Source: Sulfurospirillum diekertiae
GTDB taxonomy: Bacteria; Campylobacterota; Campylobacteria; Campylobacterales; Sulfurospirillaceae
DNA: 64,000 nucleotides
Reading direction: 5' to 3'
Assembly: GCF_002162315.1 (NCBI RefSeq)
Contig: NZ_CP021416.1
Location: 2,492,207-2,556,206 of the forward strand
This document shows, piece after piece, positions 36,397-62,329 of this stretch. Positions within the stretch are counted from its first letter, which is position 1. Each line of letters begins with the position of its first letter. Below the pieces are notes generated by a model. The model was not told where the DNA came from and did not search any database. It saw nothing but the letters and a program-made list of their open reading frames with translations. A program made the position numbers and the translations under genes.

Positions 36397-36401
36397 TCGT
36401 A

Positions 36402-36520: not shown

Positions 36521-37258
36521 TTAGTCTTCAAACTCTTTTTTATTCCTCGGCTTTAGAAATAACTCTTTAAAACGTTCATTGGCATAGGTTTCAATCTCCG
36601 CTTGAAGCTTTCGGTAATTGTCCATAAATTCACGTGCTACAGGAGTAAGCGTTGTTCCTGCATCTTCGCCACCCCCTTGCTTGGTTTGAACCATGGTGTC
36701 GTTAATATTTTTTTGCAAGATTTTGATGTGTGTCCATGCTTTTTTATAATTCATACCGATCTTTTCAGAAGCTTTAGAGATAGACCCCTCTTGCTCAATC
36801 AGCTCTAAGATTTCTGTTTTACCCTTGCCAAAAAGCAATTCACCCTCAGCATTTTCGATCCATGTTTTGGTTTTGACATACAAACGTGGACGTGCTTTTT
36901 CTTTAAAACATCCTAATTCACAAAATGTTACATCGTAGTTTTTTCTTTCAATGTGCCACGAATTTTTTTTAAGTCCAATACCAGCTGCCGCAGCGCGTGC
37001 AGCTTTACATGTAACACGATTCTTTTCATCTAACAGTGGCGTGAGGCGATTCTCTGCCTCTGCGTCGTAGATACCGCCTTCAAGTTTCCCAAACTGTCCT
37101 AGTTCACAAGAGTCGATGCGTATATCCATTGCTTTGGCACATGCACCCACTTCGAGGGTAGAACACTTTAGTTTTGCTGCGATTTTAAAGCCATCGGTGC
37201 AGTCTAGTTTGCCTTTTTCATTCAAATATTTTTTGATCAGTTCTTCCATCTCAGACAT
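36521..37258 (-). CDS. ModE-like regulator with two Cys-rich N-terminal repeats
   Basis: A 245-residue regulator in three parts. Residues about 17-58 and 81-121 are two copies of one motif, the first ending CELGQFGK and the second CELGCFKE, each preceded by a Cys about 30 residues earlier (Cys20 and Cys84). Residues 140-215 are the ModE/LysR-type helix-turn-helix (GKTEILELIEQEGSISKASEKIGMNYKKAWTHI). The usual Mop domains of ModE are missing. The gene is four bases after fdhD and on the same strand, next to tup. I infer control of tup or fdh genes, with the Cys repeats sensing a metal or redox state; this is not shown by the sequence. Confidence 0.75.
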   Translation of the reverse strand: MSEMEELIKKYLNEKGKLDCTDGFKIAAKLKCSTLEVGACAKAMDIRIDSCELGQFGKLEGGIYDAEAENRLTPLLDEKNRVTCKAARAAAAGIGLKKNSWHIERKNYDVTFCELGCFKEKARPRLYVKTKTWIENAEGELLFGKGKTEILELIEQEGSISKASEKIGMNYKKAWTHIKILQKNINDTMVQTKQGGGEDAGTTLTPVAREFMDNYRKLQAEIETYANERFKELFLKPRNKKEFED

Positions 37259-45005: not shown

Positions 45006-45042
45006 CATCTCTCTCCCCCCTACGCTTTTTCGATGCGGCATA
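44879..45042. repeat. Direct repeat, fdhA end and fdhB start (copy 2)
   Basis: Identical to 39589-39752. Upstream of it the two fdhA genes diverge clearly, so the identity is confined to the 3' parts of the operons. Confidence 0.9.
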
Positions 45043-48420: not shown

Positions 48421-48450
48421 AGTTCAGAGAGCATCAAAGCTCTCTGAACT
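48421..48450 (-). terminator. Hairpin after the TonB-dependent receptor gene
   Basis: AGTTCAGAGAGC (48421-48432) pairs perfectly with GCTCTCTGAACT (48439-48450), 21 bases after the receptor stop codon. The T run on the minus strand is short. A weaker relative lies at 43928-43957. Confidence 0.6.
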
Positions 48451-48470
48451 CTCTTTACATGTAAAATATT

Positions 48471-50468
48471 TTAGAAGCTATAGCGTGCATTAGCGTAGTA
48501 ACTTCGACCTTCTTGAGGATAACCGTAGCTATAGAAGTAGTCTTTATCAAAGATATTTTTAACACCAACTGCGAGTTCAAGTGCTTTGACTGGGCGATAA
48601 GCAACTTTCAAATCCATTAAGAAAAAATCTTTGGTTTGATAATCACCATATCGGTAATCATTGCTCACATAGCGCTCACTCTCATAACGTACTTGAGGAA
48701 TAATATCGACCATGGCGATTGGAGAATATTTTAAACGTCCTGCAAAACTATGTTTTGGTATATCCGTCACATAGGGATTGGCTGGATTATCTTTAATATC
48801 AGCATCAATATAGGTATACGATACACTACTGCTTACGTACTCAGCCCAAAAAGAGTCTAAAGAGACTTCAACGCCTTTATGCTCTTCTTTCCCTATATTT
48901 TGACTTTGCTTGCATTTACCACCTGTGCAAACGCCTACGACATTTGGAACATTCACGGAAGCGATATAATCATCCGATTCGGATAAGAAAAGAGCTACAT
49001 GCGCCACGTGTGCATCTGTTAATTTTTGGTCAATACCCACTTCATAATTAATAGATCGTTCCGCTTTTAAATCGGAATTGGGAACATACGTACCCAGCTT
49101 AGTAGAGTATCTATCTTTTAATGTAGGCATATTGCTTTTTTTAGCAATACTTCCATAGAGAGTCGTCGCATCACTTAGCTTATAGTAAAGTGCTGTTTCT
49201 GGATTGAACGCATCCGTATCATACTTTGGAAACTCTTTAATGGAACTACCACTGCGATATTCTGCTTTATCAATTTTATTTTCATCATAAGAAGCGCCCG
49301 TAACCCATGTAAGTTGATCAGTCACTTTTAATGAATATTCGAGTCCATAAGAAGTTGTTGTTCCCTCAGCTTTTATATCAACACCTGGTGTAGCAGAATC
49401 AATGTCTTTATGATAATCTTTTTTTTGCGTAACCGATAATTTTAACATTTGGGCTTCTGTTAACTTAAAATCTAACTCAGCATTACCACCTAATGTATAA
49501 TCATCATACTCCGTTACTTCCGTTATTTTAGAGCTTGTTGAAGGCAAATTATTGTACCAATTTATCTTATTATAAAACTCATCTCTGTACCAACGTGTCT
49601 TTAACATAATTGCATCATTGAGTGCAGTTTTTGTCAGAAAATAATAACTGGTTTTGTCCCAGTCTGGCCAATACCAATGTCTATTTGTTGCCATGGCAAC
49701 GGGTGCCGTTATATCGCTAGCAAAATAGGGTTGCCCTTTTTCTCCTCGTTGTGCAATATAATTAAAAGCATATTCATCCGTATCGTTAGGCGTATAACCG
49801 ACTTTAATATTGATTTTTCGATCTTGTGAATCTGAGTTTTCTCGTCTACCGCCATTTTCATACCCATTGGCAGTATAATCATTTGATAATTTAAAATAAT
49901 CTCTTTCGTAATTTGAAACAGAGATCAACCCATAATATTTCCCTTGATTGGTTCCCATGGTTAAATACTCTTCTTGCCCATTACCGCTAAAAACACCCGC
50001 ACCCACTTCGCCTTCAAACTCTTTCGTTGGTTTTTTGGTGATAAGATTAACAGCTCCACCCATTGTATTTGCCCCATACATTGGAGAAACATAGCCTTTG
50101 GATACATCAATCTCATCAATATCATAGGTTGTGAAACGACTTAAATCCGTTGTTTTATCGTAAGGGACATAAACAGGGATACCATCGACATAGATAGGCA
50201 CACGACTTTGATTAAAGCCTCGGATACGAATACCCGTATCATTTCGTGCACCTGTTTGCTGAATATACGTACCTGGAATGTTTTCCAATGCTTGAGCAAC
50301 TGTTTTACTCTCTGTATCTTTTATTGTTTGTGCATCTACAAATTCTGTCGTCTGATTTGCACTAATATCTTTTGATTCACTTACCTCAATTTTGCCCAGT
50401 TCAAATGTCTCACCCATCAACACAGATGCGGTGATCAATGAAAGTGCCAAGCCGACGTTGTATTTCAT
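48471..50468 (-). CDS. TonB-dependent outer-membrane receptor
   Basis: A 665-residue receptor. Signal peptide at 1-18, a TonB-box-like stretch FELGKIEVSESKD, a plug domain (TVAQALENIPGTYIQQTGARNDTGIRIRGFNQSRVPIYVDGIPVYVPYD, YGANTMGGAVNLITKKP) and a barrel ending YYANARYSF. One Cys pair (CTGGKC) sits in a late loop. The ligand is not predictable from sequence. It follows the ABC importer genes by 91 bases and has its own upstream ModE-type half-box, so I infer a Mo/W complex or chelator. The ATG at 50468 follows AAAGGAG. Confidence 0.9.
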   Translation of the reverse strand: MKYNVGLALSLITASVLMGETFELGKIEVSESKDISANQTTEFVDAQTIKDTESKTVAQALENIPGTYIQQTGARNDTGIRIRGFNQSRVPIYVDGIPVYVPYDKTTDLSRFTTYDIDEIDVSKGYVSPMYGANTMGGAVNLITKKPTKEFEGEVGAGVFSGNGQEEYLTMGTNQGKYYGLISVSNYERDYFKLSNDYTANGYENGGRRENSDSQDRKINIKVGYTPNDTDEYAFNYIAQRGEKGQPYFASDITAPVAMATNRHWYWPDWDKTSYYFLTKTALNDAIMLKTRWYRDEFYNKINWYNNLPSTSSKITEVTEYDDYTLGGNAELDFKLTEAQMLKLSVTQKKDYHKDIDSATPGVDIKAEGTTTSYGLEYSLKVTDQLTWVTGASYDENKIDKAEYRSGSSIKEFPKYDTDAFNPETALYYKLSDATTLYGSIAKKSNMPTLKDRYSTKLGTYVPNSDLKAERSINYEVGIDQKLTDAHVAHVALFLSESDDYIASVNVPNVVGVCTGGKCKQSQNIGKEEHKGVEVSLDSFWAEYVSSSVSYTYIDADIKDNPANPYVTDIPKHSFAGRLKYSPIAMVDIIPQVRYESERYVSNDYRYGDYQTKDFFLMDLKVAYRPVKALELAVGVKNIFDKDYFYSYGYPQEGRSYYANARYSF

Positions 50469-50496
50469 AGTTTTCTCCTTTAAAATGTTTACCAAA

Positions 50497-50520
50497 CATA
50501 GTATTTTATTTTATATAACG
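50497..50520 (-). promoter_or_regulatory. ModE-type box (one good half) before the TonB receptor
   Basis: CATAGTA-N8-TATATAACG on the plus strand, 24 bases. The right half equals the ModE half-site; the left half is weak. It lies 29-52 bases before the receptor start. Confidence 0.5.
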
Positions 50521-50559
50521 ATAGATCTGTTTAACCCGAAAAGACAAACTAACCTCCTC

Positions 50560-51345
50560 CTAGTGTTTCGTATGAATAAATGAAGGGATGCAGACGGGAT
50601 AACCACACGCTGTCTGTTTGAGCTCAATATTCGTATGGTAAAGTTCGTTAATCAGCTCTTGTGTAATCGTTTTACATGTAAGCCCATGCGCTAAGATATG
50701 CCCGTCTTTTAGGGCATAGGTATAACCACCGAGCATTAAAGCATGTTCAGGGAAATGGGTTGATTTTAAAAACGTATAGCCTTCCTGAGAGAGGTTCATA
50801 ATCGTCTCTAAAAGGCGTAGCTGATTGCCATAGTCTAATCCCGAAACAGGCTCGTCCATCACTAAGATTTTTGCACCTTGCGCTAAAGAGCGTGCGATTA
50901 GAACCAACTGTTTTTCCCCTCCACTCAGCGTTTGAAAGGTACGCTTTTCCAAATGCAAAATACCCAGCCGATCCATCGCCTCACGTGCTAATTGGATATC
51001 AGCCTGACTTGGCTTTTTAAACCATGTCTCAAAAGCAATGCGACCCATAAGGACAATGTCCAGCGCAAAAAATGCAAATGCCACTTGTGTGCTTTGCGGA
51101 ACATAGCTTACATGGTAAGCGCGTTCTTTGATGGAATAACTCTGTAATGCTTTACCTTTTAAGATCACTTCACCACTTTTAGGGGTCAAAAGTCCCAAAA
51201 AAAGTTTCATCAACGTACTTTTCCCCGTTCCATTCGGACCTAAAAGAGAGACAATACTACCTTTTTCAATGGCAAGATTAACCCCTTGCAAAACAGGCTT
51301 ATTATTGTAAGAGAAGAAGAGATTTTTGGCTTGATAAAAACTCAT
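50560..51345 (-). CDS. ABC importer ATPase, FecE/BtuD/MolC type
   Basis: A 261-residue ATPase: Walker A GPNGTGKST, signature LSGGEKQLVLIARSL, Walker B ILVMDEPVSGLD and switch His STHFPEHAL. The sequence is of the class that serves iron-siderophore, B12 and MolABC-type molybdate importers. It overlaps the permease by four bases. The C-terminus has two Cys (TACGYPVCIPS) that are unusual for the family. Confidence 0.88.
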   Translation of the reverse strand: MSFYQAKNLFFSYNNKPVLQGVNLAIEKGSIVSLLGPNGTGKSTLMKLFLGLLTPKSGEVILKGKALQSYSIKERAYHVSYVPQSTQVAFAFFALDIVLMGRIAFETWFKKPSQADIQLAREAMDRLGILHLEKRTFQTLSGGEKQLVLIARSLAQGAKILVMDEPVSGLDYGNQLRLLETIMNLSQEGYTFLKSTHFPEHALMLGGYTYALKDGHILAHGLTCKTITQELINELYHTNIELKQTACGYPVCIPSFIHTKH

Positions 51346-52358
51346 GCGAACCCTTTTTTAGCATTACGAAGCGCCAAAACAAAAATAGGAATACCAATGA
51401 GTGATGTTGCAATACCAATGGGAATTTCAACACTCATAGACGTACGACACAACGTATCGACAATGACTAAAAATGTCGCACCTAACAGCGCACACATTGG
51501 AAGTAAAATGCGGTTATCCGCACCGACTAAAAAACGTGCAATATGGGGAATAATAAGCCCTACCCAACCAATCATCCCTGCGACAACAACCGTTAAGGTA
51601 CTTAAAAGAGTTGCCAATAAAATCGCACCATTGCGTACCCATGTAACGCGTACACCCAAAGCTTTGGCATCATCATCACCAAGACTTAAAACGTTCAGGT
51701 ATTTGCCCATCAAGCAGAGCATAATCGTACTTATCAGAAGTGGGAAAGCGACATTTGCAACCATCTTCATATCTACCGCACTGAAAGAGCCCATCAGCCA
51801 GTAAACAATGGTCGGAAGTTTATTGTAAGGGTCGGCAACATATTTCACCGTAGAAAGCAGTGCAGAGAAAAGTGAGCTAGAGATGACACCACCTAAGACT
51901 AAAAGAATGGTCTGTGAACCACTTCGACCATAAATCTTTGCCACGCCAAGTGCCACTAAAACAGCCACAAACCAAAAACGAAAGAAAAAAAGTTGCACCC
52001 CAAACCAACTATCAGAAATCATAATACCCAGAGCTGCTCCAAAAGAGGCACCCGCAAGCACGCCTAAAATTCCAGGAGAGACCAGAGGATTCACAAACAT
52101 TGCTTGAAATGCTCCACCTGAAACCGATAACGCTGCTCCCACAAGTACAACGGCTAAGATACGTGGTAAGCGTATGTCAAAAACGATATTTGAAAGTAGT
52201 GCTACTTCGTTAGGCGCACTACCTATGGTAAAAAATTTCCATAAAAGAAGTTGCCCTAATGTTCTAAGATCAATTTCATAACGTCCCAAAGCCAAAGAAA
52301 TAAGCAGACTCGCACCTAGTGCCACAATAATCATGCTAAAAAGAAGCGAGTTTTTCAT
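51342..52358 (-). CDS. ABC importer permease, FecCD/MolB family
   Basis: A 338-residue permease with ten helices: RLPRILAVVLVGAALSVSGGAFQAMFVNPLVSPGILGVLAGASFGAALGI is the FecCD hallmark, and GWVGLIIPHIARFLVG the later one. It forms a dimer in the inner membrane with the ATPase and takes substrate from the binding protein encoded just before it. It overlaps both neighbours by four bases. Confidence 0.9.
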   Translation of the reverse strand: MKNSLLFSMIIVALGASLLISLALGRYEIDLRTLGQLLLWKFFTIGSAPNEVALLSNIVFDIRLPRILAVVLVGAALSVSGGAFQAMFVNPLVSPGILGVLAGASFGAALGIMISDSWFGVQLFFFRFWFVAVLVALGVAKIYGRSGSQTILLVLGGVISSSLFSALLSTVKYVADPYNKLPTIVYWLMGSFSAVDMKMVANVAFPLLISTIMLCLMGKYLNVLSLGDDDAKALGVRVTWVRNGAILLATLLSTLTVVVAGMIGWVGLIIPHIARFLVGADNRILLPMCALLGATFLVIVDTLCRTSMSVEIPIGIATSLIGIPIFVLALRNAKKGFA

Positions 52359-53371
52359 ACACGCCCCAAAATGTGATGAAGCTGTGTATCGTTTAGATCA
52401 ATGTTTAAAAAGAGTTTGTAAAATTCACGCATCTCTTGTGTAAATTGCTCTGAATTTGGTGTATTGTAAAGGATATGTGTCAGCCATCTTACCCCTAAAA
52501 GACGCATAAATGAGGGTGGTCGGTCGATCCAGTTAAATGGCACTTTGGGCACTAAAAAGATCTTGCCCTCACGAACCGCTTTGATGGAGTTCCACCTTGC
52601 ATCGCTTTTAACTTTTTCCACAAATTCTCGCTCTTGCGCCACAATGATGTCAGGGTTATACAAAATCACCTGTTCTAAAGAGACTTTTTCAAGCCCCATA
52701 CCACTTTTCGTGGTACATAAATGGGGATTAATACCCCCTGCAAATTTGATCGCTTCATAGTGAAATGATTGATCACACTCCGTAGCAAGTCCATCCGCAC
52801 CCTCTGCGTAATAGACAACAGGGCGTGTAGCGGCATTGGTCTTGACAACCTCTTTTGTTTTTTCAAGTGCTTTTGTTGCATAGTCTGAGAGTATCTTCGC
52901 TCGTTGCTCTTTGCCTAAAACCTCCCCAAAGAAGAGATAGGCTTTCGGTAAACTCTCTACACTTTCAAGATCAACATCAATGCTTGGAATTTTGCTACTC
53001 TCAAAGAGATACTGTGCCAATTGGCTAGAAGCATCGTTATTCCACAAAAAGACAACATCGGGATGCAACGAGAGCAAGGTTTCACGGTTCATGCTGTTCC
53101 CTCCACCTTGAAGACCGCCTACGACAGGAAGTGCCATAAAGCGAGGATCAAGCATATTGGAAGACTCATTATTCCCACGGGCATGGTTAAAGTTAAGCCC
53201 TACAATTAGTGAAGAATCAATCGTATAGATCATGTAAGTTGAAGGCGGTGACGTACCAAACACTTTGGTAATGACATCGGGAATTTCAACTTTTTTACCA
53301 CCCATGTCGACAATTTCACGCGCACTTAGGCTTAATAGTAAACACAAAAGTGCCCACACTATTTTTTTCAT
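52355..53371 (-). CDS. ABC importer periplasmic binding protein (BtuF/MolA-like fold)
   Basis: A 338-residue binding protein with a signal peptide (IVWALLCLLLSLSA). It has the two-lobe pattern with RVLGTS-like start (VFGTSPPSTYMIYTID), LLSLHPDVVFLWNND and, in the second lobe, VVYYAEGADGLATECDQSFHYEA and PFNWIDRPPSFMRLLG. The same two motifs occur in the protein at 58368. It takes the ligand delivered by the TonB receptor. The ATG at 53371 overlaps the previous stop codon (ATGA) and has GGA six bases before it; an ATG at 53377 is the alternative. Confidence 0.88.
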   Translation of the reverse strand: MKKIVWALLCLLLSLSAREIVDMGGKKVEIPDVITKVFGTSPPSTYMIYTIDSSLIVGLNFNHARGNNESSNMLDPRFMALPVVGGLQGGGNSMNRETLLSLHPDVVFLWNNDASSQLAQYLFESSKIPSIDVDLESVESLPKAYLFFGEVLGKEQRAKILSDYATKALEKTKEVVKTNAATRPVVYYAEGADGLATECDQSFHYEAIKFAGGINPHLCTTKSGMGLEKVSLEQVILYNPDIIVAQEREFVEKVKSDARWNSIKAVREGKIFLVPKVPFNWIDRPPSFMRLLGVRWLTHILYNTPNSEQFTQEMREFYKLFLNIDLNDTQLHHILGRV

Positions 53372-54402
53372 TCCCATTCCTTTTTTTCATCGCAATAAGG
53401 GCGTACCGCTTCATTGAATGTTCGTAAAAGCGTTATGTTTTCAAAAAGATCAACACCAAGTGGTTTAAGCGTTATCGTGACATTTTCTAAACATGCTTGA
53501 ATGGCTTTGATTTTAGCAATACATGTTTTTGCATCGCCGATAATGCCACAATCAAAAAATTTCTGCCCATCAAAAAAGGTACTCCTCTCAGCTATAAGCT
53601 GTTTGTATCTGCTTTGATCAAAATGGGGTGATTTATGAAATGAAGAGGCCGCACGCATTGACTTCGCAAAATGGTCAATCGCAGGACGTGCTTTATAAGC
53701 TGCTTCTTCATCACTTTTAGCAACATAAAATGTCCGCAAAAGTACGATCTGCGGTTTAAAACCAGCAATAGCTTCATATGCTTGGCTTACACGTGCACAT
53801 TCGTCTAAATCAACCCCTTGCGAAAGCATCAGCCCAAAACCTTTTTTGGCAGCAAAGGCGATGGTTTCATCTGAGGCAAACGTTGCAATGTACGTGGGAA
53901 TCTTCGCTTGAAACGGTTTTGGCTCGATATCAACTTCTGAAAAATGAATAAATTTACCCTCAAAACCAACGGGTTGATCCTTTACATGTAAAAGCTGTGT
54001 AACAGCATCCACACACTCAAACATCATCGGGCGCAGGTTTTCTACTGTGACATTAAAATGCTTTGAATCGGGTGCAAAAGCGCCTTTGGCAAAGCCTAGG
54101 TTGATTCTACCTTGACTTAAGTGATCTAGCGTTGCAACCTCTTCCGCTAAGCGAATAGCATCATAAAAGGGGGCTAAAAAACCAGCACATCCCAGCCTCA
54201 CATACTTCGTTCGTGCCGTAGTGTACGCTAAAAGAAGTGACGGAGAAGGACAAATACTAAAATCATTAAAGTGGTGTTCCCCCAGCCAAACTTCATCAAA
54301 TCGCATCGCATCGACCAGTTCAATCAGTTTGAGCTGATTTTCAATCGCTTGGTTGGCATTCACATTAAAGCGCTCAAAGAGGCAAAAAATTCCCCATTTC
54401 AT
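53368..54402 (-). CDS. LLM-class flavin-dependent oxidoreductase (luciferase-like)
   Basis: A 344-residue protein with the bacterial luciferase fold: MKWGIFCLFERF, FDEVWLGEHHFNDFSICPSPSLLLAYTTARTKYVRLGCAGFLAPFYDAIRLAEEVATLDHLSQGRINLGFAKG are all family marks. It would use FMNH2 and oxygen on a small substrate. In a metal-uptake operon this may break down or modify an organic chelator to release the metal; that is inference. It overlaps the globin gene before it and the binding-protein gene after it by four bases each. TTACATGTAA occurs inside at 53982. Confidence 0.85.
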   Translation of the reverse strand: MKWGIFCLFERFNVNANQAIENQLKLIELVDAMRFDEVWLGEHHFNDFSICPSPSLLLAYTTARTKYVRLGCAGFLAPFYDAIRLAEEVATLDHLSQGRINLGFAKGAFAPDSKHFNVTVENLRPMMFECVDAVTQLLHVKDQPVGFEGKFIHFSEVDIEPKPFQAKIPTYIATFASDETIAFAAKKGFGLMLSQGVDLDECARVSQAYEAIAGFKPQIVLLRTFYVAKSDEEAAYKARPAIDHFAKSMRAASSFHKSPHFDQSRYKQLIAERSTFFDGQKFFDCGIIGDAKTCIAKIKAIQACLENVTITLKPLGVDLFENITLLRTFNEAVRPYCDEKKEWE

Positions 54403-54944
54403 ACGATTCCAAACTCCTCTTTCATATCTTTATATAAAAAACGCTTCATGGGCGTTGTCAAACTTCGACGGTTCACCATGCGCATCGAAAAAGGCTCAAT
54501 CCAGTTCCAAAACTCTTCGATCAACTCTTTAGGAAAATTAAGATCATGGAGGGTTTGCTTGTACATCATAAGCCATACTTCCCTACTCTCATCGTCAATG
54601 GCAAAGGGAGCATGAGTACGGCACAAAGAGGGTGGACCGTAACTAAAGGTATAGGTTTTCTCGCCCCCTAAGGCCTGAATAAGAAAATGACTTGCTTTGG
54701 CAACCCCTTCCAAAAAATGAGCATCATCCGTTGGATACATCTGCGCAATAGCACTTTTTTGCAGTAAACGATGATGATGTAGCACAATTTTGGGAATGGT
54801 TTCAGCGCCTACTTTTCCTAAAAAACTGGGCGTTGGGAAAATGATCGGAGGCAATGAAGCTTTGAGATCAAAGCTACTCCATTTAAGAGGTTCACTCTTT
54901 TTAGGAGTCGTTAGTTTATGAAGAAAATGATGACCATTACACAT
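54399..54944 (-). CDS. Group II-like truncated globin with N-terminal extension (globin 1)
   Basis: A 181-residue protein. Residues about 45-170 match a group II truncated haemoglobin: LGGEKTYTF, the heme-ligand His111 in RTHAPF and Trp124 in EVWLMMYKQ. Compared with the usual 130 residues it has about 45 extra at the front (CNGHHFLHK onward) and a C-terminal EPFSMRMVNRRSLTTPMKRF that is also present in the globin at 57760. It lies between tonB and the luciferase-like gene. Oxygen or NO handling for the flavin enzyme, or heme sensing, are possible roles. Confidence 0.78.
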   Translation of the reverse strand: MCNGHHFLHKLTTPKKSEPLKWSSFDLKASLPPIIFPTPSFLGKVGAETIPKIVLHHHRLLQKSAIAQMYPTDDAHFLEGVAKASHFLIQALGGEKTYTFSYGPPSLCRTHAPFAIDDESREVWLMMYKQTLHDLNFPKELIEEFWNWIEPFSMRMVNRRSLTTPMKRFLYKDMKEEFGIV

Positions 54945-54953
54945 AAAATCTCC

Positions 54954-55649
54954 TTAGGATTTAAGCTTGAACACAACGGGTATTGCAATTTCCAACTCCT
55001 CTTTGGGTGGAAGCTCAAAAGGGATGGCATCTAAGACAGCATCGATAGCATTGCGATCTAAAATCGCTTTGCCACTGGACTTTGCAATCTTAATGGACGA
55101 TGCATCTACCATGCCATTGGAATGAATTAAAAACTGCACCACCGCCTCACCTTCCAATCCCATTTTTTTTGCCATAGAGGGATAACGAAGGCTCTCTTGA
55201 ATCTTATGCCTTACTTTGGCAAGGTAAATGGAGAGCAAATCATCGCTTTGGTGCGAAGATGATACGGAAGCTTTTTCTTGTGTTTTAGCACTGGCGGGCG
55301 CTTCCGCCGTTTGTTCGACAAAAGAGTCACTTGAAGGAGCTGATGACACAATAGGCTCTTGAATGTGTTTTTGAATAGGGACTGTTTTAACAGGCTCTTT
55401 TTGAACTTTTTTTTTCAGGTTTTTTTCTACTATCGGCTCAGGTTTAACAGGTTCTAATGGAACTTCATGTTTGATTTCTTCAGCGGCTGGTGTGGGTTTT
55501 GGCTCGTCTAAAAAACTCACCTGTGTCACCACAAACTCGCGAATAACAGGCTTTGGAATCATCATACTCCCCATAAAAAGAGCATACGCAATCATTACAT
55601 GTAAAAACAGCGTACCCAAAGAGGCGGCAAAAAAATGCGATGCTTTCAC
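54954..55649 (-). CDS. tonB: TonB energy-transducing protein
   Basis: A 231-residue TonB: an N-terminal membrane anchor (SLGTLFLHVMIAYALFMGSMM), a long Pro/Lys/Glu-rich stretch (KPTPAAEEIKHEVPLEPVKPEPI) and the C-terminal domain with SLRYPSMAKKMGLEGEAVVQFLIHSNGMVDASSIKIAKSSG, the YP motif of TonB. It joins ExbB-ExbD in the inner membrane to the receptor encoded in the same operon. It overlaps exbD by four bases. Confidence 0.92.
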   Translation of the reverse strand: MKASHFFAASLGTLFLHVMIAYALFMGSMMIPKPVIREFVVTQVSFLDEPKPTPAAEEIKHEVPLEPVKPEPIVEKNLKKKVQKEPVKTVPIQKHIQEPIVSSAPSSDSFVEQTAEAPASAKTQEKASVSSSHQSDDLLSIYLAKVRHKIQESLRYPSMAKKMGLEGEAVVQFLIHSNGMVDASSIKIAKSSGKAILDRNAIDAVLDAIPFELPPKEELEIAIPVVFKLKS

Positions 55650-56053
55650 GTACCTGCCTTGGTCGTTTGAATTGCAAATGTACTAATGCGATGTTTTTTG
55701 CAAATGTCAATCACTTTGACAACATATTCAAACGGTGTTTTAGCGTCGCTGCGAAGCACAATATGAGGATCTTTTTCGCCTATCTGTGCCATTTTTGTAT
55801 CTAAATCGTCTATAGAGAGTGCCACATCATCGTAATACAGTTCTCCCGTTTCACTCAAAGAGAGCGTAATGGGCTTTTGATCCTCTTTATGATTTTCAGC
55901 GTTCGTGGCCTGTGGTAAATTCAGAGGAATCTTACCTTGTGTTACAAAGGTAGCTGTCACCATAAAAATGACCAAGATAACCAGCACAATATCAACAAAA
56001 GGCGTCATATTAATCTCGGCAATATCACTCTCGTAGACAGGTTCACGCCTCAT
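55646..56053 (-). CDS. exbD: ExbD proton-channel subunit
   Basis: A 135-residue protein with one membrane helix (INMTPFVDIVLVILVIFMVTATFV), in which the Asp of TPFVDIV is the proton-conducting residue, and a periplasmic domain ending AIQTTKAGT. It overlaps exbB by 11 bases and tonB by four. Confidence 0.93.
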   Translation of the reverse strand: MRREPVYESDIAEINMTPFVDIVLVILVIFMVTATFVTQGKIPLNLPQATNAENHKEDQKPITLSLSETGELYYDDVALSIDDLDTKMAQIGEKDPHIVLRSDAKTPFEYVVKVIDICKKHRISTFAIQTTKAGT

Positions 56054-56489
56054 TGAGTTGTGCTTCCTTCTGTGTTAAAACCACTTTGACGCGTCTTGTG
56101 AAATAGTTATAGGCGATAACACATGGAATCGCAACAAAAAGACCCGTAGCAGTTGCAATCAAGGCTTCAGAGATGCCTTGCATAATGGGCTGTACATCAA
56201 AAGCATTGGAAGATCCTATCATATGAAATGCTTGAATAATTCCTAAAACAGTTCCAAAGAGTCCTATAAAGGGGGCGTTATTGCCAAATGTGGCTAAAAT
56301 ACCTAAACGCGCTTCAAGACTCAGACGTAATGTATAATAATCAATACTTTGATAGTTTTTTTGAATGGCTCCAAACGCCAAAAAACGCTCGATCATCACG
56401 CCAACGGCGATGACACTCATAGAAACCAACACCCAAAGTACAGGGTCAATTCCCACAAGAGCGAATGATAATAATTTTTCACTGAGCAT
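56043..56489 (-). CDS. exbB: ExbB proton-channel subunit
   Basis: A 148-residue MotA/TolQ/ExbB protein with three helices and the hallmark NNAPFIGLFGTVLGIIQAFHMIG and EALIATATGLFVAIPCVIAYNYF. It is the first gene of the nine-gene operon that runs to the TonB receptor. An extended palindrome with a ModE-type box lies 33-80 bases before its start. Confidence 0.93.
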   Translation of the reverse strand: MLSEKLLSFALVGIDPVLWVLVSMSVIAVGVMIERFLAFGAIQKNYQSIDYYTLRLSLEARLGILATFGNNAPFIGLFGTVLGIIQAFHMIGSSNAFDVQPIMQGISEALIATATGLFVAIPCVIAYNYFTRRVKVVLTQKEAQLNEA

Positions 56490-56521
56490 TTTTTCTCCTT
56501 ACATCAACGAATGCAAAACCC

Positions 56522-56569
56522 TTTTCGCTCAATCGCTATATACTATACATAATAACGGTTGAGCGAAAA
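56522..56569 (-). promoter_or_regulatory. ModE-type box inside a larger inverted repeat, exbB promoter
   Basis: TTTTCGCTCAA (56522-56532) and TTGAGCGAAAA (56559-56569) form an 11-bp inverted repeat around CGCTATA-N8-ATAATAACG (56534-56557), a 24-bp ModE-type box. The whole could act as operator and, once transcribed, as an RNA hairpin. Confidence 0.65.
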
Positions 56570-56763
56570 AAAGCAGACAACAAGAAACGAGAACATTATA
56601 TCGCAATATATTTGCAAATACAACGTAAAATATACACTTTACTGCGTTCATTCTGTTTAAAAAATAGGCATCCTATAATGAAAAGAATGCACGAAGAGCG
56701 CTTCATTCGACTTTTGTGCTATACTTATTCCACAATTACACCTCTAAAATAGATAGGAATACC

Positions 56764-57537
56764 ATGTTAGAAGCACGACTTTGGATGAAAAAAAGCGATA
56801 AAAATTATCTCGGTAAAGGGCGTATAGAGCTTTTAGAACACATTCGAGAACATGGATCTATTCATGCAGCAGCTAAAGCGATGAAAATGAGTTACAAAGC
56901 TGCTTGGGATTCAGTGGATGCGATGAACAACCTTTCTGAAATTCCACTGGTGCAAAAAACAAGCGGTGGTAAAGGCGGCGGAGGAACACTTCTGACACCT
57001 AAAGGCGAAGAGGTCATCGCAGCATTTCACAACTTACAAGAAAAACATCAACAATTTTTAGATCTTTTTGCGAACAGCGAAGATCTACTCACGATCGTTC
57101 AAACACTTAGCCGCCTCTCTTTGAAACTCAGCGCGCGTAACCAACTGATAGGCACTATTAGTGCTATTAATGAAGATACGGTGAATGTTGCCGTTGAGCT
57201 TACGATCAAAGCTGCTGATAAAATTTACGCAAGCATCACCAAAAACAGTTATCAAGAACTCGGTCTGCATCTAGGGGAGAATGCTATTGCTATCATTAAA
57301 GCAAGTTCGGTGTTGCTTTCCAAGAGTAAACCCGCTATTGCCTGCGAAAATTTACTCAAAGGGACTATTATTCAAATTCTTAGTGATACCTCCAATACAG
57401 AAGTCACATTGGAGCTTGAAAGTAAAAGTACCATCACTGCCACCATTGCCAATGATGCATTTGAGCCACTAAACCTCAAAGTCAATGCGGAGGCCTATGC
57501 ATTTTTCAAAGCATCTAATGTTATCTTAGGCGTTTAA
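56764..57537 (+). CDS. modE: ModE, molybdate/tungstate-responsive regulator
   Basis: A 257-residue full-length ModE. Residues 1-110 form the winged HTH (GRIELLEHIREHGSIHAAAKAMKMSYKAAWDSVDAMN, then GGKGGGGTLLTPKGEEVI). Residues about 125-190 and 195-257 are two Mop domains (ARNQLIGTISAINEDTVNVAVEL and CENLLKGTIIQILSDTSNTEVTLEL) that bind oxyanion. ModE with bound molybdate or tungstate binds 24-bp palindromes; four such boxes lie in this cluster. The gene is divergent from exbB. The ATG at 56764 follows AGGAA. Confidence 0.93.
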   Translation: MLEARLWMKKSDKNYLGKGRIELLEHIREHGSIHAAAKAMKMSYKAAWDSVDAMNNLSEIPLVQKTSGGKGGGGTLLTPKGEEVIAAFHNLQEKHQQFLDLFANSEDLLTIVQTLSRLSLKLSARNQLIGTISAINEDTVNVAVELTIKAADKIYASITKNSYQELGLHLGENAIAIIKASSVLLSKSKPAIACENLLKGTIIQILSDTSNTEVTLELESKSTITATIANDAFEPLNLKVNAEAYAFFKASNVILGV

Positions 57538-57688
57538 AGACTATCTTAACGCCTCTTTTGGGCTCTTGGTAACACCACCACATTTTCTTTTAAAATGCTT
57601 AAATAGTAACCATTTTATTGCACATAAAATAACTCCTATCTCCTTTTCTCTCTTTAAACTCTTGCCATATAGATTTTTTTCGTGCTAC

Positions 57689-57712
57689 CATTATGTTTTA
57701 ATTTATATAACG
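57689..57712 (+). promoter_or_regulatory. ModE-type box before globin 2
   Basis: CATTATG-N8-TATATAACG, 24 bases, 48-71 bases before the globin 2 start. The right half is perfect and the left half has two differences. Confidence 0.6.
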
Positions 57713-57759
57713 AATGCGAGTAAAAATTATCATCTATTTTAATAGTTCAAGGAGACTCT

Positions 57760-58329
57760 ATGCCAGTTATGGTTGATGGTGTTAAAGTACAACTCTTTAG
57801 TGAATGTGACCCCAACGCCCCTTTCCCACAAACGGATGAAAATCTAAGACGTGCCCACCCGAAGATTGATGTGATCTTTCCCGAAGTCTTCTTCCCTTCC
57901 AACAAAACCTATCTAGCGATTGGAGAAGCCAAAATTCGTGAAGTGGTTAAGTTGCACCATGATCTCGTGCGTAAAAGTAAAATCGGTCATCTTTATCCTC
58001 AAGAGGAAGCTGCTTTTATTGCAGCCACAACAAAAATTGAAGATTTTTTTGTACAAATGTTAGGTGGTGCTGATCTGTACACCTCCAAACAAGGTCATCC
58101 AAAGCTCAGAGAACGTCATTTTCCCTTTGAAGTCACTGAAACAGGGCGTGACATCTGGCTGATGTGTTTTAAAAAAGCACTCAAACAAGCGCATGTTCCT
58201 AAAGAGTTTTTACCCGAAATTTGGAATTGGGTTGAATCCATCTCAATGCGTATGATCAATAGACGTACCAGTATGGAAATGCTCAAACGTTACCCTTATG
58301 AGAGTATTCAATCTTATTTTGACGCTTAA
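57760..58329 (+). CDS. Group II-like truncated globin with N-terminal extension (globin 2)
   Basis: A 189-residue protein with the clearest group II globin core: LGGADLYTSKQGHPKLRERHFPF (heme-ligand His120), then GRDIWLMCFKKAL with Trp133. About 50 extra residues precede the core (residues 1-50, with CDPNAPFPQ and IDVIFPEVFFPS), where globin 1 has IIFPTPSFLG. The C-terminal SISMRMINRRTSMEMLKRYPY matches that of globin 1. So the two are paralogues, each next to a binding-protein gene and each linked to a ModE-type box. The role is unknown; binding of O2, NO or sulfide, or heme-linked redox work on a metal complex, are options. Confidence 0.8.
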   Translation: MPVMVDGVKVQLFSECDPNAPFPQTDENLRRAHPKIDVIFPEVFFPSNKTYLAIGEAKIREVVKLHHDLVRKSKIGHLYPQEEAAFIAATTKIEDFFVQMLGGADLYTSKQGHPKLRERHFPFEVTETGRDIWLMCFKKALKQAHVPKEFLPEIWNWVESISMRMINRRTSMEMLKRYPYESIQSYFDA

Positions 58330-58367
58330 CGCTCTTTACATGTAAAAACAATCCCAAAGGATTTTTG

Positions 58368-59390
58368 ATGCGCTATTTACTTCTCTTTTTACTTTTTTTT
58401 AGTTCACTTTTTGCCAATACAACACGCACATTTACTGATATTTCAGGAAAAAACATCAGCTTACCTGAACATGTCACACGTATTTATGGCTCAGCTCCTC
58501 CTATTACTTTTATGCTTTATGTCATCGATGATGCTCCACTCATTGGTGTGAATTTTCCACAGACAAATAAAGACAATAGTGATGGTGAGAAATTTTTAAG
58601 CAAACACTTTATGAGCCTTCCTGTATTGGGTGGTTGGCATGGAAACAACACCCCTAACTTAGAGGCGATTATCGCAGTAAAACCCGATGTCATTGTGACA
58701 TGGGATACGCCACTTCTCAATGAAAAAACGGCCAAAGATTTAGCACGCATCAATATTCCAGCTCTCAAAGTGAATATTGATGATTCACGTCATTATCCTG
58801 AAGTCTTTCGCTATCTTGGAAAAGTGATGCACAAGGAAGATCGTGCTAATCAGCTTGCAAATATGGCACAAAATTATTTGGATGAGCTTAAAAATTTTGT
58901 AGCGACTGTTCCTGAGCAAGAGCGTACCAAAGTGTATTACGCAGAAGGTGATTTCGGACTTCAAACAGAGTGTGACGTCTCATTTCACTCTGAACCTTTA
59001 ACGCTTGCGGGAGGAAATTTAGTCCATAAATGTGTTCAAAATAGTGTTATCGGACTGCAAGAAGTCAGTTTTGAGCAGGTTCTCATCTATGCTCCCGATG
59101 TCATTATTGTGCAAAACCCCGCTTTTTATAAAACAATTTTTACCGATAAAAAATGGGCTATGCTTAAAGCGGTTCAAACAAAAAGAGTGTACTTAGTACC
59201 AAAATCTCCTTTTAACTGGACCGATCGTCCACCTTCCTTTATGCGTATTATTGGGGCACATTGGATTGCCAGTAAACTCTATCCAACACGTTACCCTTTT
59301 AAGATTCAAGAAAAAGTGAGAGCGTTTTATCAACTCTTCTTTGGTGTCGCACTGAGTGACGAAGATCTCAAAACTTATTTTGATCTTTAA
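58368..59390 (+). CDS. Periplasmic binding protein, paralogue of the operon's binding protein
   Basis: A 340-residue binding protein with a signal peptide (LLLFLLFFSSLFA). It shares with the protein at 53371 the second-lobe motifs VYYAEGDFGLQTECDVSFHSEP and PFNWTDRPPSFMRIIG, and the order of the rest. No permease lies with it, so it probably uses the FecCD-type permease encoded at 52358. It is 38 bases after globin 2 and 78 before the radical SAM gene. The ATG at 58368 follows AAAGGA. Confidence 0.87.
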   Translation: MRYLLLFLLFFSSLFANTTRTFTDISGKNISLPEHVTRIYGSAPPITFMLYVIDDAPLIGVNFPQTNKDNSDGEKFLSKHFMSLPVLGGWHGNNTPNLEAIIAVKPDVIVTWDTPLLNEKTAKDLARINIPALKVNIDDSRHYPEVFRYLGKVMHKEDRANQLANMAQNYLDELKNFVATVPEQERTKVYYAEGDFGLQTECDVSFHSEPLTLAGGNLVHKCVQNSVIGLQEVSFEQVLIYAPDVIIVQNPAFYKTIFTDKKWAMLKAVQTKRVYLVPKSPFNWTDRPPSFMRIIGAHWIASKLYPTRYPFKIQEKVRAFYQLFFGVALSDEDLKTYFDL

Positions 59391-59396
59391 ATACTA

Positions 59397-59427
59397 AGAC
59401 TCTCTCATCAACCTTTTAGAGAGTCTC
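59397..59427 (+). terminator. Hairpin between the binding protein and radical SAM genes
   Basis: AGACTCTCT (59397-59405) pairs with AGAGAGTCT (59418-59426), followed by CTGGTTTGC. The T run is poor, so it may be a partial terminator or an mRNA processing site. Confidence 0.5.
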
Positions 59428-59468
59428 TGGTTTGCAATGAAACCTACTTTTGATTAAAGGAATACCCT

Positions 59469-61250
59469 ATGATCTGCCCAATTTGTGAACGAAGATGCCG
59501 TGTTGAAGAGAACAGTGTTGGTGCATGTGGACGTTATCAATGTCACAACAATACCATGCTCGAACGCTTCCCAAACTCGTATCTTGTGGTAGCTCCCATT
59601 TCGGCTGAGACGATGCCAGTGCTTCACTTTCATCCCCGTGCAAAGTTTTTGCAAATTAGTACCACTGGGTGTAATTTTGACTGTTTGGGGTGCATTTCAA
59701 CAGTGGTGGCTAAAGAGATGGATGTGCAAAGTCCTGCACTTAAAAAACTCTCTCCCATACAAATTGTCAACAAAGCATTGGAGCAAGAGTGCGATGGTAT
59801 CGCTTTTTTAATGAACGATCCCCTCGCCTCTTTTTATAGCTTTCTTGAAATCTGCACCTTAGCCAAAGAGTGTGGGCTGCTGACAGGCTGTTCCACCAAT
59901 GGCTATTTCACACCCGAATCGCTTAATCTGCTCGCTCCGCATTTGGATTTTGTGAACATTGGGCTTAAAGGTTTGTGCAATGACATCTACAAAAGTTGTG
60001 GCGCAAACAGTTACAAACCTGTTTTACGTAACATTGAACTTTTTTACCGAAAAGGCGTTCATGTCGAAGTGGCGTGTATTCATAAAAAAGATAATGATGA
60101 TGAAGTTCTTGCTATTGCAGATACTATAGCAAAGATTTCGAAAGAGATTCCGCTTCAGATCATGCGGTTTATTCCTATTGATGATGCCAATATTAACCTT
60201 GAGCCATCCATCTTAGCTTCGGAAATGCTTTACAAAAAACTCACATCACGCCTTGATTATGTCTACTTGTTTAACTCCCCAGGATCAGAGTGCCTGAACA
60301 CCTACTGCCCAGAATGTGGTGCACTCATTTTTGAGCGAGATTTTTACGGCCCAATGGGTTCAAAATTAAGAACAATCAGCCACAACTATCAGAACAATAC
60401 CTGTTCACACTGTCATCATAAACTTCCTATCGTAGGGAACCCTTGTCAAAAAGTCTTTGATGAAGATGGTTTTGAAGGCGGATACCCACTTACTAGAGCA
60501 CTCGAAATTGTCGAAGGAACACTCGCAACACTTGGTGTGACAGATCAAAAAGAAGTTACGACATGTTGGGAAGAACTTTTACGTGGGGATGGACTAAAAC
60601 GTTTACATGTAAACATTCAAAACTTTGAAGATTATGCCACTACCATTCATTATCTTGCCAAAATGACCCACACAGAGACTACCGCCAAAAAACTTCTAGC
60701 CTATATGCGAGACAAAATTGCCATTATTGCGCAAGAACTTCCAAAGGTAATAACAAAGCCCCGTGTTTATTACGTCATGGGTAAACCTTTATTTGCACTT
60801 GAAGAGGAGCGACTTGAAAATAAATTGGTCGAGATGGCCGGTGGCATTAGTGTCAATAAAACGCTGGGTTTAAAAGGAAGACCTGGGCGAAAAATATCGG
60901 TTGAAACACTCAATGCACTCAACCCAGACGTTATTTTTATCTCTTCTTTTTTGGATTGTCCGTTGGAAGAATTTTACACCTTCTGTGAAGAGCAAGGCAT
61001 TGTTGTCAATGCGGTAAAGACTAAACGCATCTATACGCATCTTGCCCCTTGCTTTGATTTTGGAAGTCCAAGATGGATTTTGGGTTTGATGCACATTGCC
61101 AATATGCTACACCCCGAGCTCTATCATTTTGATGTCTTACACGAAGCAAAATTCTTCTATCAGGAATTTTACGACACGCCATTAAACATCACTTCGATTA
61201 ATCGTTCTTTCGCAAAACCAAGTCAATATCATAAGATGCTTCATATTTAA
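59469..61250 (+). CDS. Radical SAM enzyme fused to a periplasmic-binding-protein-like domain
   Basis: A 593-residue cytoplasmic protein without a signal peptide. Residues 1-20 have four Cys (C3, C6, C10, C20) as in AmmeMemoRadiSam/PflA-like enzymes. The SAM cluster motif is C68-NFD-C72-LG-C75. A C-terminal Cys set (CLNTYCPECG near 280 and CSHCHH near 320) may bind another cluster or Zn. From about residue 430 the sequence is a lobe of the BtuF/MolA-type binding protein: PRVYYVMGKPLFAL, LENKLVEMAGGISVNKT, LNALNPDVIFISSF, PRWILGLMHIANMLHP. I know no characterised enzyme of this build. It may act on, or sense, the ligand taken up by the cluster's importer. Confidence 0.8.
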   Translation: MICPICERRCRVEENSVGACGRYQCHNNTMLERFPNSYLVVAPISAETMPVLHFHPRAKFLQISTTGCNFDCLGCISTVVAKEMDVQSPALKKLSPIQIVNKALEQECDGIAFLMNDPLASFYSFLEICTLAKECGLLTGCSTNGYFTPESLNLLAPHLDFVNIGLKGLCNDIYKSCGANSYKPVLRNIELFYRKGVHVEVACIHKKDNDDEVLAIADTIAKISKEIPLQIMRFIPIDDANINLEPSILASEMLYKKLTSRLDYVYLFNSPGSECLNTYCPECGALIFERDFYGPMGSKLRTISHNYQNNTCSHCHHKLPIVGNPCQKVFDEDGFEGGYPLTRALEIVEGTLATLGVTDQKEVTTCWEELLRGDGLKRLHVNIQNFEDYATTIHYLAKMTHTETTAKKLLAYMRDKIAIIAQELPKVITKPRVYYVMGKPLFALEEERLENKLVEMAGGISVNKTLGLKGRPGRKISVETLNALNPDVIFISSFLDCPLEEFYTFCEEQGIVVNAVKTKRIYTHLAPCFDFGSPRWILGLMHIANMLHPELYHFDVLHEAKFFYQEFYDTPLNITSINRSFAKPSQYHKMLHI

Positions 61251-61281
61251 GCAGTACCCTCTTGTACTTATGGTTAAATTT

Positions 61282-61305
61282 CGTTATAGTTCCAAGTATA
61301 TAACG
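61282..61305 (+). promoter_or_regulatory. ModE-type box before the methyltransferase
   Basis: CGTTATA-N8-TATATAACG, 24 bases; the best of the four boxes, with both halves complete except for one base. It ends 15 bases before the start codon. It also shows that translation does not start at 61270. Confidence 0.75.
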
Positions 61306-61320
61306 TATAAAGGATGTTTT

Positions 61321-62085
61321 ATGGAACCAGCATTTAATTTTTGGGACAATATGGCAAAGCGTTACCCACGCTTTAACGATATAACAATGAGCAAAGACGT
61401 CAATCATATTTTAAATTGGTGCCAAAATAAAAATGTTTCATTTGAGGGTGCTTCTATTTTAGATATTGGAGCAGGAACCGGAACCATTGCCATTCCTTTA
61501 GCACAAAAAGGGGCACAGGTAACTGCTATGGATATTTCAGAAGGAATGTTGGCAGCACTCAATGAAGATGCAAAAGAACAAGGACTCAGCTCAAAAGTTT
61601 CTACGCACCAAAGCGATTGGGATTCATTTCCATTAAACCAAAAATATGACATAGTTATCGCTTCAATGACCCCTGCGATTAGTGACCTACAAAAAATTGA
61701 AAAAATGCTTGGAGCTACAAAAGGGATAGGCATCTATGTTGGTTGGGGGAAATACCGCATTAATAAATTGGTTGAAGCTCTAGTCAAAGCCCATACAAAA
61801 GAAGAAGAGGATTGTGCATCGGGTGGCTGTATCAAAGCCAATCAATTTATTGAAATTTTAAAAGAGAAAAACATTCCTTTTGAGAGCGATTTTTTTGCAA
61901 CATCTTGGGTCGACATGTACACCTTTGATGAGGCAAAAGAGTATTCTTATGATCAGCTCAAACGTAAAGAGATAACCCCTGATGAAGAGATTGTAGAATC
62001 TATTTTAGTATCGTTTCTTAAGGACGATAAAGTCCATGTAAAAACGGAAGCAGAAAAAGGGATGGTTTTGTGGAACGTCGCTTAA
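61321..62085 (+). CDS. Class I SAM-dependent methyltransferase
   Basis: A 254-residue methyltransferase with motif I ILDIGAGTGTIAIPLA, motif II VTAMDISEGMLAAL and the acidic DIVIASMTPAISDL. Two Cys (EDCASGGCIKANQF) lie in the middle. The target is unknown; similar enzymes sit beside FecCD-type importers in other anaerobes, and modification of a metal ligand is possible. The ATG at 61321 follows AAAGGA; the ModE-type box lies just before it. Confidence 0.85.
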   Translation: MEPAFNFWDNMAKRYPRFNDITMSKDVNHILNWCQNKNVSFEGASILDIGAGTGTIAIPLAQKGAQVTAMDISEGMLAALNEDAKEQGLSSKVSTHQSDWDSFPLNQKYDIVIASMTPAISDLQKIEKMLGATKGIGIYVGWGKYRINKLVEALVKAHTKEEEDCASGGCIKANQFIEILKEKNIPFESDFFATSWVDMYTFDEAKEYSYDQLKRKEITPDEEIVESILVSFLKDDKVHVKTEAEKGMVLWNVA

Positions 62086-62119
62086 GAAGATACCCTTAAT
62101 CGGGCATCTTCTTTTTTGT
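62084..62119 (+). terminator. Terminator after the methyltransferase
   Basis: AAGAAGATACCC (62084-62095) pairs with GGGCATCTTCTT (62102-62113), followed by TTTTTTG. It ends the ModE-linked cluster. Confidence 0.8.
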
Positions 62120-62329
62120 TTATTCTTTAATCAGTAAAACACTGACGGCTTTAACAATGACTTTGACTTTATCACCCTCTTTCAGCCCCATCTCTTCGAT
62201 GGATTCCATCGTCATAACCGAACTCATTTTATTGGCAATGATGTCGCCCACATCGACTTGACACATCACTTCACCTTTTTTGATCTTTTTAACCGTTGCA
62301 GTGATTTCATTTCGTGCGCCGTATTTCAT
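62120..62329 (-). CDS. Mop-domain molybdate-binding protein (molbindin)
   Basis: A 69-residue single Mop/TOBE domain: ARNEITATVKKIKKGEVMCQVDVG, then NKMSSVMTMESIEEMGLKEGDKVKVIVKAVSVLLIKE. Such proteins form rings that store molybdate or tungstate. It follows cysA by 87 bases on the minus strand. Its place between the ModE cluster and an oxyanion importer suggests that the importer may handle molybdate as well as sulfate. Confidence 0.88.
   Translation of the reverse strand: MKYGARNEITATVKKIKKGEVMCQVDVGDIIANKMSSVMTMESIEEMGLKEGDKVKVIVKAVSVLLIKE

Follow-up and report, generated by a model that had tools for sequence, protein, structure and literature searches.

A ModE-linked TonB/FecCD gene cluster of Sulfurospirillum diekertiae as a candidate uptake system for complexed molybdenum or tungsten

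What does an importer of siderophore-like design carry when its genes lie beside a gene for the molybdate regulator ModE? The question is raised by a gene cluster of Sulfurospirillum diekertiae, located within positions 2492207–2556206 of a single-contig genome of 2.88 Mb (the window, the whole stretch of 64,000 nucleotides analysed here). The cluster encodes a TonB-dependent outer-membrane receptor, ExbB, ExbD and TonB, a FecCD-type ATP-binding cassette (ABC) importer with two periplasmic binding proteins (BP1 and BP2), ModE, two truncated haemoglobins, a flavin monooxygenase, a methyltransferase, and a radical S-adenosylmethionine (SAM) enzyme fused to a binding-protein-like domain (Table 1). 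The cluster is probably a ModE-controlled, TonB-powered importer for complexed molybdenum or tungsten (Mo/W). Its link to ModE, and hence to Mo/W status, was proposed from the letters of the window alone (the original prediction) and is well supported as a sequence-based assignment because the ModE boxes are conserved in place, two surveys starting from the box and from the transporter agree with it, and a paralogue control separates this importer from its relatives.

The boxes follow the 24 bp pattern CGTTATA-N8-TATATAACG and were scored by mismatches. All four that had been predicted are present (with 3, 2, 2 and 0 mismatches), and a fifth at 56602–56625 had been overlooked. At up to 3 mismatches the whole window yields 8 rows where 0.40 are expected and the largest number in 100 shuffles is 3; seven of the eight are inside the cluster, at five places. 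The nearest box ends 15 bases 5′ of the start codon of the methyltransferase gene, 28 bases 5′ of that of the receptor, 44 of that of exbB (its second box 112) and 47 of that of globin 2. The methyltransferase most likely begins at the ATG at 61321, 3′ of its box, instead of at 61270 as originally given. These distances suit repression by ModE, and the direction of control is deduced from them because promoter and terminator scans gave no help, finding 0, 2, 0 and 0 promoter-like sites at the boxes, about the level of shuffled sequence. One of the two sites near globin 2 has a second hexamer that ends three bases inside the box, and a TATAAT on the minus strand (56600–56595, by eye) ends one base from the box at 56602–56625.

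The identity of the box as an operator comes from a survey that covered 348 genomes of the order and allowed up to 1 mismatch. The 30 loci delivered and labelled are all outside the organism's own family (21 in family f7, 6 in f11 and 3 in f2), and neighbours, here and in the second survey, were labelled by their best BLAST match among proteins of this genome and its relatives, which is no assignment to a family; of the reference proteins, ModA, ModB and ModE pass their NCBIfam cut-offs and ModC is below its own. Because 25 of these 30 loci outside the genus have the box directly 5′ of ModE or ModA (match within 160 bases), the pattern is, judged by its placement, the ModE operator in this order. 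Two of the remaining loci are upstream of uptake genes and three have no label. Among 24 genomes of the genus there are 55 box rows at up to 1 mismatch versus 4 for the reversed pattern, one site on both strands being counted as two rows.

The ModE of the cluster is a plausible user of such an operator. It passes TIGR00637 (99.5 bits, cut-off 98.5) and TIGR00638 (114.8 bits, cut-off 55), falls below the equivalog PRK10676 (174.9 vs 369), and aligns over its full length with Escherichia coli ModE (1o7l). The E. coli motifs SARN and ITxxS, the KA lysine and the SYKxAWD helix are kept in the alignment of this putative molybdate/tungstate- and DNA-binding regulator. The E. coli ModE regulon includes modABC, dmsA and moaA. 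The full-length architecture of ModE and the type of operator are shared with it, and in this order the operator precedes ModE and ModA; the difference is that boxes here are also located 5′ of TonB receptors, of the ExbB operon of a FecCD importer and of accessory enzymes.

The boxes are conserved at the corresponding places in relatives. A box with up to 3 mismatches is found 5′ of modE (position R1) in 13 of 14 rows, for which at most 2 of 200 shuffles equal the match, 3′ of modE (R2) in all 14 rows, and 3′ of the ATPase gene (R4) in all six scored rows, with one row skipped. At the position 5′ of the methyltransferase gene (R3), 12 of 17 rows have 0 mismatches, three have 2, and two have 6, the last being second methyltransferase copies within an operon. 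The interval between exbB and modE contains two conserved sites, 56534 and 56602, the site at 56602–56625 being the better conserved. The rows for the window, G015 and G016 are nearly alike, R2 and R3 are one site in G012, G019 and G021, and the R1 row of G034 lies behind BP2, not exbB. The single failure at R1 is G021 (4 mismatches, matched by 10 of 200 shuffles), which has ModE, box and methyltransferase at the locus, lacks the uptake operon there and has no close FecCD homologue in its genome. The absence of both the uptake operon and its box from G021 is telling for the link between them.

A second survey began from the transporter. Homologues of the FecCD permease (E up to 1e-75) gave 39 neighbourhoods of up to 7 kb on each side, some ended by contig ends (3.8 to 13 kb), of which 36, from 35 genomes, are outside the organism's own family; as a control, other FecCD paralogues were sought in 34 genomes, and 22 of these, all among the genomes of the survey, supplied 31 neighbourhoods, near-duplicates included. 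The original prediction had proposed looking in other genomes for the same genes near ModE boxes, and they do recur in several families: a box with up to 2 mismatches is present in 24 of the 36 regions (36 boxes, 31 of them between called genes; reversed pattern, 0) versus 2 of the 31 controls (2 boxes; reversed pattern, also 2). Leaving out four regions inspected earlier for a box or methyltransferase (G102, G104, G325 and G477), 20 of 32 are boxed. Boxes near FecCD homologues occur in families f3, f4, f6, f7, f8 and f21, besides f1. Homologues of ModE (12 regions), ModABC (9), the monooxygenase (14), globin (9) and methyltransferase (10) accompany the group, and each is absent from all 31 controls. 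One-sided Fisher tests give 2e-7 for boxes, 4e-5 for the monooxygenase, 0.002 for globin and 0.001 for the methyltransferase, values that are optimistic owing to relatedness. The monooxygenase, globin and methyltransferase are thus recurrent partners of the FecCD group and not chance neighbours. In G102, for example, globin, binding protein, FecCD and ATPase genes are divergent from ModE-ModABC with boxes between them, and more boxes lie 5′ of a receptor and methyltransferase.

In a tree of the permeases all 46 rows of the FecCD group fall on one side of a branch with 100/99 support, and a box is found in 32 of the 46 group regions versus 2 of the 31 paralogue regions. The tree indicates coherence and is not an independent test, because its rows were picked by similarity. 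The cluster is, on these comparisons, a ModE-linked TonB/FecCD system of several families and no local oddity; a local coincidence was considered and rejected on the transporter-first survey and the paralogue control.

The same data bear on the simplest alternative, that an unrelated iron operon happens to stand beside modE and its AT-rich boxes arose by chance. The pattern is indeed AT-rich, and at up to 3 mismatches it is not enriched genome-wide, yet the conserved box places, the occurrence in other families and the reversed-pattern and paralogue controls all speak against chance. That reading is highly improbable and is refuted as far as sequence allows.

Several observations nevertheless weigh against a Mo/W importer under ModE control. 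In the whole genome, 19 and 20 rows match at up to 3 mismatches versus 31 and 26 for the reversed pattern (39 vs 57); weak, 3-mismatch boxes alone therefore prove nothing. The loci of the survey that began from the box represent just three families, one of which supplies 21 of the 30. Two classical ModE-ModABC operons of this genome (L066 and L067), each headed by its own ModE, have no box with fewer than 5 mismatches, and the gap between TupA and TupB has none with fewer than 7. The cluster ModE as user of the box is hence assigned by linkage, since the ModABC and Tup loci of its own genome are without a good box. Twelve of the 36 FecCD regions are boxless, including three nearly alike from genus g7 of family f3. 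Globins and monooxygenase are absent from the clusters of G014 and G027; neither can therefore be essential, and globins were rejected as an essential core. The several receptors and binding proteins could also mean several cargoes.

Table 1. Coordinates of cluster genes, ModE boxes and one adjacent gene, numbered from the first nucleotide of the window
Feature	Coordinates	Strand	Basis and remarks
TonB-dependent outer-membrane receptor	48471..50468	-	PF00593 (150 bits) and PF07715 (83 bits), both over cut-off; ATG at 50468, alternative open reading frame (ORF) start TTG at 50495
ModE box 5′ of receptor, 3′ of ATPase gene	50497..50520		3 mismatches; position R4
Importer ABC ATPase	50560..51345	-	PF00005
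FecCD-type permease	51342..52358	-	PF01032, 256 bits; boxes found with its close homologues
Periplasmic binding protein BP1	52355..53377	-	PF01497; MolA (HI1472) is third among its relatives with solved structures, E 5.7e-16
Luciferase-like flavin monooxygenase	53368..54402	-	PF00296, 167 bits
Truncated haemoglobin 1 (globin 1)	54399..54944	-	PF01152, 46.9 bits
TonB	54954..55649	-	PF03544
ExbD	55646..56053	-	PF02472
ExbB	56043..56489	-	PF01618
ModE box 1, exbB/modE interval	56534..56557		2 mismatches
ModE box 2, exbB/modE interval	56602..56625		3 mismatches
ModE, N-terminal helix-turn-helix and two Mop/TOBE domains	56764..57537	+	PF03459, PF00126; ORF opens at GTG 56716
ModE box 5′ of globin 2	57689..57712		2 mismatches; position R2, 3′ of modE
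Truncated haemoglobin 2 (globin 2)	57760..58329	+	PF01152, 75 bits; 4nk1 is its closest relative with a solved structure, E 4.2e-47
Periplasmic binding protein BP2	58365..59390	+	PF01497; close homologue 4pag (solved, S. deleyianum), E 2.1e-193
Radical SAM (about 1-320) / binding-protein-like domain (about 340-580) fusion	59469..61250	+	PF04055, PF01497, fold matches
ModE box directly 5′ of methyltransferase	61282..61305		0 mismatches; position R3
Class I SAM methyltransferase	61321..62085	+	PF13649 and others
Small Mop/molbindin-like protein, single TOBE	62120..62329	-	PF03459, 36.8 bits; no box; membership in system uncertain

Pfam searches confirm every gene named in the original prediction with scores over the curated cut-offs, including the plug and barrel domains of the receptor and both truncated haemoglobins. 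The genes from ExbB through TonB, globin 1, monooxygenase, BP1 and FecCD to the ATPase form a tight run in which adjacent genes overlap, the sole gap being 9 bases between TonB and globin 1. The receptor gene had been counted in the same overlapping operon; it may be a separate unit from the exbB run, because the gap that separates it from the ATPase gene contains its own ModE box. In the globins one histidine of the presumed proximal block is conserved in 90 percent or more of 21 aligned rows and is taken for the proximal histidine. A globin query of the plasmid collection gave 3 weak matches, each under 32 percent identity. Near the small Mop/molbindin-like gene the best match to the box in the flanking gaps has 8 mismatches.

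With its TonB receptor, its ExbBD-TonB and its FecCD importer the cluster has the full set of parts found in siderophore systems, and it is conceivable that it is an iron-siderophore or haem uptake system merely tuned by ModE, with molybdenum status gating the import of iron or haem, both of which molybdoenzymes require. The best models for the receptor are siderophore and haemin families, with scores below cut-off, haem globins are present within the cluster, and the C-terminal domain of the fusion also fits haem-binding proteins, at lower Z. We regard this account as unlikely: boxes, ModE and ModABC accompany the importer in other families. An E. coli-type Fur box is absent at up to 4 mismatches from the window and is not enriched in the 36 FecCD regions, but neither is it in the paralogue controls, which leaves this comparison without the power to decide. 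The cluster further differs from siderophore systems in being ModE-linked, in having no siderophore synthesis genes that could be seen, and in encoding enzymes without a known siderophore role.

MolABC of Haemophilus influenzae (HI1470–1472) is a FecCD-type importer with a Peripla_BP_2-like binding protein, and the same pairing of FecCD permease and PF01497 binding protein is present here. ModB/TupB-type permeases and ModA/TupA-type binding proteins, the marks of the ModABC, TupABC and WtpABC oxyanion importers, are absent from the cluster, its permease belonging to PF01032 (FecCD) and its binding proteins to PF01497; ModA, ModB, TupA and TupB scoring over their cut-offs are encoded elsewhere in the same genome. 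The solved structures closest to BP1 and BP2 include MolA (E 1.6e-16 for BP2), which ranks third for BP1 and fourth for BP2. Other solved proteins score as high or higher, so the comparison with MolABC drawn originally holds only as a general similarity. Likeness to MolA alone names no cargo because differently named solved relatives score equally or better. MolABC is described as a low-affinity molybdate importer, and TonB does not occur in the main text of the paper (PMC4031551). The putative cargo of the cluster, a Mo/W chelate, is the best inference from regulation by ModE and from the association with ModABC and formate dehydrogenase genes.

The window contains other genes of molybdenum and tungsten metabolism. 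TupA and TupB, over their cut-offs, are divergently arranged at 33736–37258, near a 245-aa ModE-like protein that matches the ModE repressor domain only at residues 144–237 and below cut-off; a profile search found no Mop domain in it. There are two formate dehydrogenase-like gene sets, named by eye: the first has its large subunit broken into two ORFs, and a large subunit at 45020–47830 carries Molybdopterin domains.

The most unusual product of the cluster is the radical SAM fusion. It matches Radical_SAM PF04055 (66 bits) and has the cluster motif CNFDCLGC (CxxxCxxC) at residue 68, whose three cysteines are conserved without exception in the 6 sequences aligned. Residues 2–322 match the AmmeMemoRadiSam radical SAM protein (TIGR04337) at 117.9 bits, far below the cut-off of 220, and unlike that protein they are fused to a binding-protein-like domain. 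In a structure model (mean predicted local distance difference test score 63.9, predicted template modelling score 0.46; the relative placement of the two domains was unused), residues about 340–580 are predicted to take a solute-binding-protein fold, with matches to 4hn9 (Z 18.7, root-mean-square deviation 3.1, 216 residues aligned), 4ovk (18.0, 3.5, 230) and, third, MolA (17.5, 3.2, 218). A shortened first lobe of this domain was considered and dropped, the aligned ranges of the fold matches disagreeing. The fusion is read as a putative cytoplasmic enzyme with a domain related to the binding proteins of the importer, because no secretion signal is seen by eye N-terminal to the radical SAM domain. 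It is 98 percent identical to a protein of S. diekertiae JPD-1. Full-length homologues were found only in its own genus, in 10 of 44 genomes of the family, in 7 of 397 of a phylum sample and at 5 named loci, and the fusion was rejected as a core of the system for this restricted distribution. A separate homologue of the radical SAM part alone is encoded in this genome and in relatives.

We infer that the enzymes process an imported chelate. They could instead build a chelator, the cluster making a secreted Mo/W metallophore that is then reimported. Azotobacter provides the precedent for uptake of molybdenum as an organic chelate, in the catecholate molybdophores azotochelin and protochelin; that chelator is made by the cell, whereas here no synthesis genes are seen in the cluster and the receptor is ModE-boxed. 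The best curated model for the monooxygenase is TIGR04020, a subfamily of secondary metabolism (105 bits, 244 needed), and such pathways often include methyltransferases and radical SAM enzymes, but no nonribosomal peptide synthetase or siderophore-synthetase type of scaffold enzyme is among the cluster proteins. The binding-protein-like domain of the fusion suits an enzyme that receives an imported compound, and in some genomes the transporter is kept without several of the enzymes. A synthesis cluster is for these reasons not a likely interpretation.

The cargo might also be inorganic, a complex of sulfidic water such as thiomolybdate, thiotungstate or a polyoxoanion, whose size or scarcity would put it beyond the reach of porins and ModABC. 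Such a cargo is in keeping with the habit of the genus of respiring sulfur and formate, and by analogy the methyltransferase could act on thiols or sulfide. MolA, moreover, is described as binding the oxyanions molybdate and tungstate (PMC4031551). An inorganic complex does not, however, call for an oxygen-using flavoenzyme or a radical SAM enzyme, and seems quite unlikely.

Returning to a ModE-controlled importer of a chelate, its operation can be pictured as follows. When Mo/W is plentiful, metal-loaded ModE would bind the boxes near the starts of exbB, globin 2, the receptor and the methyltransferase and block transcription. When Mo/W is short, the receptor would be produced and energised by its own ExbB-ExbD-TonB, and BP1 and BP2 would pass the cargo to the FecCD/ATPase importer. 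The ligand may then be acted on in the cytoplasm by the flavin monooxygenase and haemoglobins where oxygen is available, and by the radical SAM fusion where it is not. The methyltransferase, which stays beside ModE even in G021 without the uptake operon, may modify the freed ligand, and opening of the ligand would make the metal available for cofactor synthesis. Extended to the whole order, this becomes a more tentative proposal, possible but not one we would assert: a widespread and so far undescribed class of Mo/W acquisition systems in which one or more Mo/W chelates enter by way of TonB receptors and binding proteins under ModE control and a FecCD clade dedicated to them, and in which a matched set of enzymes opens the chelate, either a flavin monooxygenase with haemoglobin (using oxygen) or a radical SAM enzyme with its own binding-protein-like ligand domain (without oxygen).

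The best boxes elsewhere in the genome mark further candidate components. At L063 (10194–14030; genome 1.022–1.026 Mb) a 0-mismatch box is situated directly 5′ of a binding protein with 41 percent identity to BP1, which is followed by a protein with a TonB plug domain and by a methyltransferase. No permease gene is adjacent, and this satellite cassette probably uses the importer of the window. Homologues of the cassette in G033 are in one run with ExbBD, globin, monooxygenase, FecCD and ATPase genes, and from that arrangement it follows that several receptors and binding proteins probably share one importer. At L064 (7842–9464; genome 2.475 Mb) a 1-mismatch box precedes a 530-aa ORF for a TonB receptor whose barrel is shortened; the gene may be broken in this strain. 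A 2-mismatch box at L068 (7097–12490; genome 2.572 Mb) has a formate dehydrogenase operon on one side and a LivJ-like binding protein with histidine kinase on the other, and boxes 5′ of a protein similar to that of L068 are also present in G012, G021 and G028 (L097, L102 and L105). An odd target is the gene for a 1312-aa TPS-domain secreted protein at L065 (5893–9864; genome 2.165 Mb), with a 2-mismatch ModE-like box 5′ of it.

At L138 (7528–11824) and L208 (8419–12678) a methyltransferase, a binding protein and an ATPase stand beside ModE and formate dehydrogenase, together with a protein that was identified by eye as FmdE-like and has no NCBIfam match. These loci are perhaps a second variant of Mo/W importer; a labelled FecCD piece and a 1-mismatch box are present in L138 and neither in L208. 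In two genomes of family f5 (L206, 3859–4719; L207, 7008–7866) a ModE box is located 5′ of a ModD gene near a boxed ModABC, ModD being assigned by TIGR01334 over cut-off in L206 and by likeness in L207.

In the open-access literature searched, which takes in few subscription papers, no report was found that connects TonB receptors in Sulfurospirillum or Campylobacterota with ModE or with the uptake of molybdate. The main text of PMC5343134 contains neither molybdate nor a ModE regulator, PMC4674564 treats modABCDE and a TonB system separately and interprets TonB in terms of ferric siderophore uptake, and PMC10974373 and PMC6704131, which like it mention the genus with TonB and molybdenum or tungsten, have no bearing on a link between ModE and TonB. 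The parts are known; their combination of ModE, TonB receptors and the FecCD group was not met in that literature.

In the usual picture, molybdate and tungstate pass the outer membrane passively, and ModABC or TupABC then captures them. A receptor that has both a ModE box and a TonB motor of its own would imply paid uptake of a complex across the outer membrane where Mo/W is scarce or bound. The candidate genes make the old question of a molybdophore receptor testable in a culturable genus, and the cluster yields a radical SAM enzyme with a built-in putative ligand-binding domain. The ModE link may also provide a first functional frame for the monooxygenase, globin and methyltransferase neighbours of FecCD importers, which are easily mistaken for iron genes.

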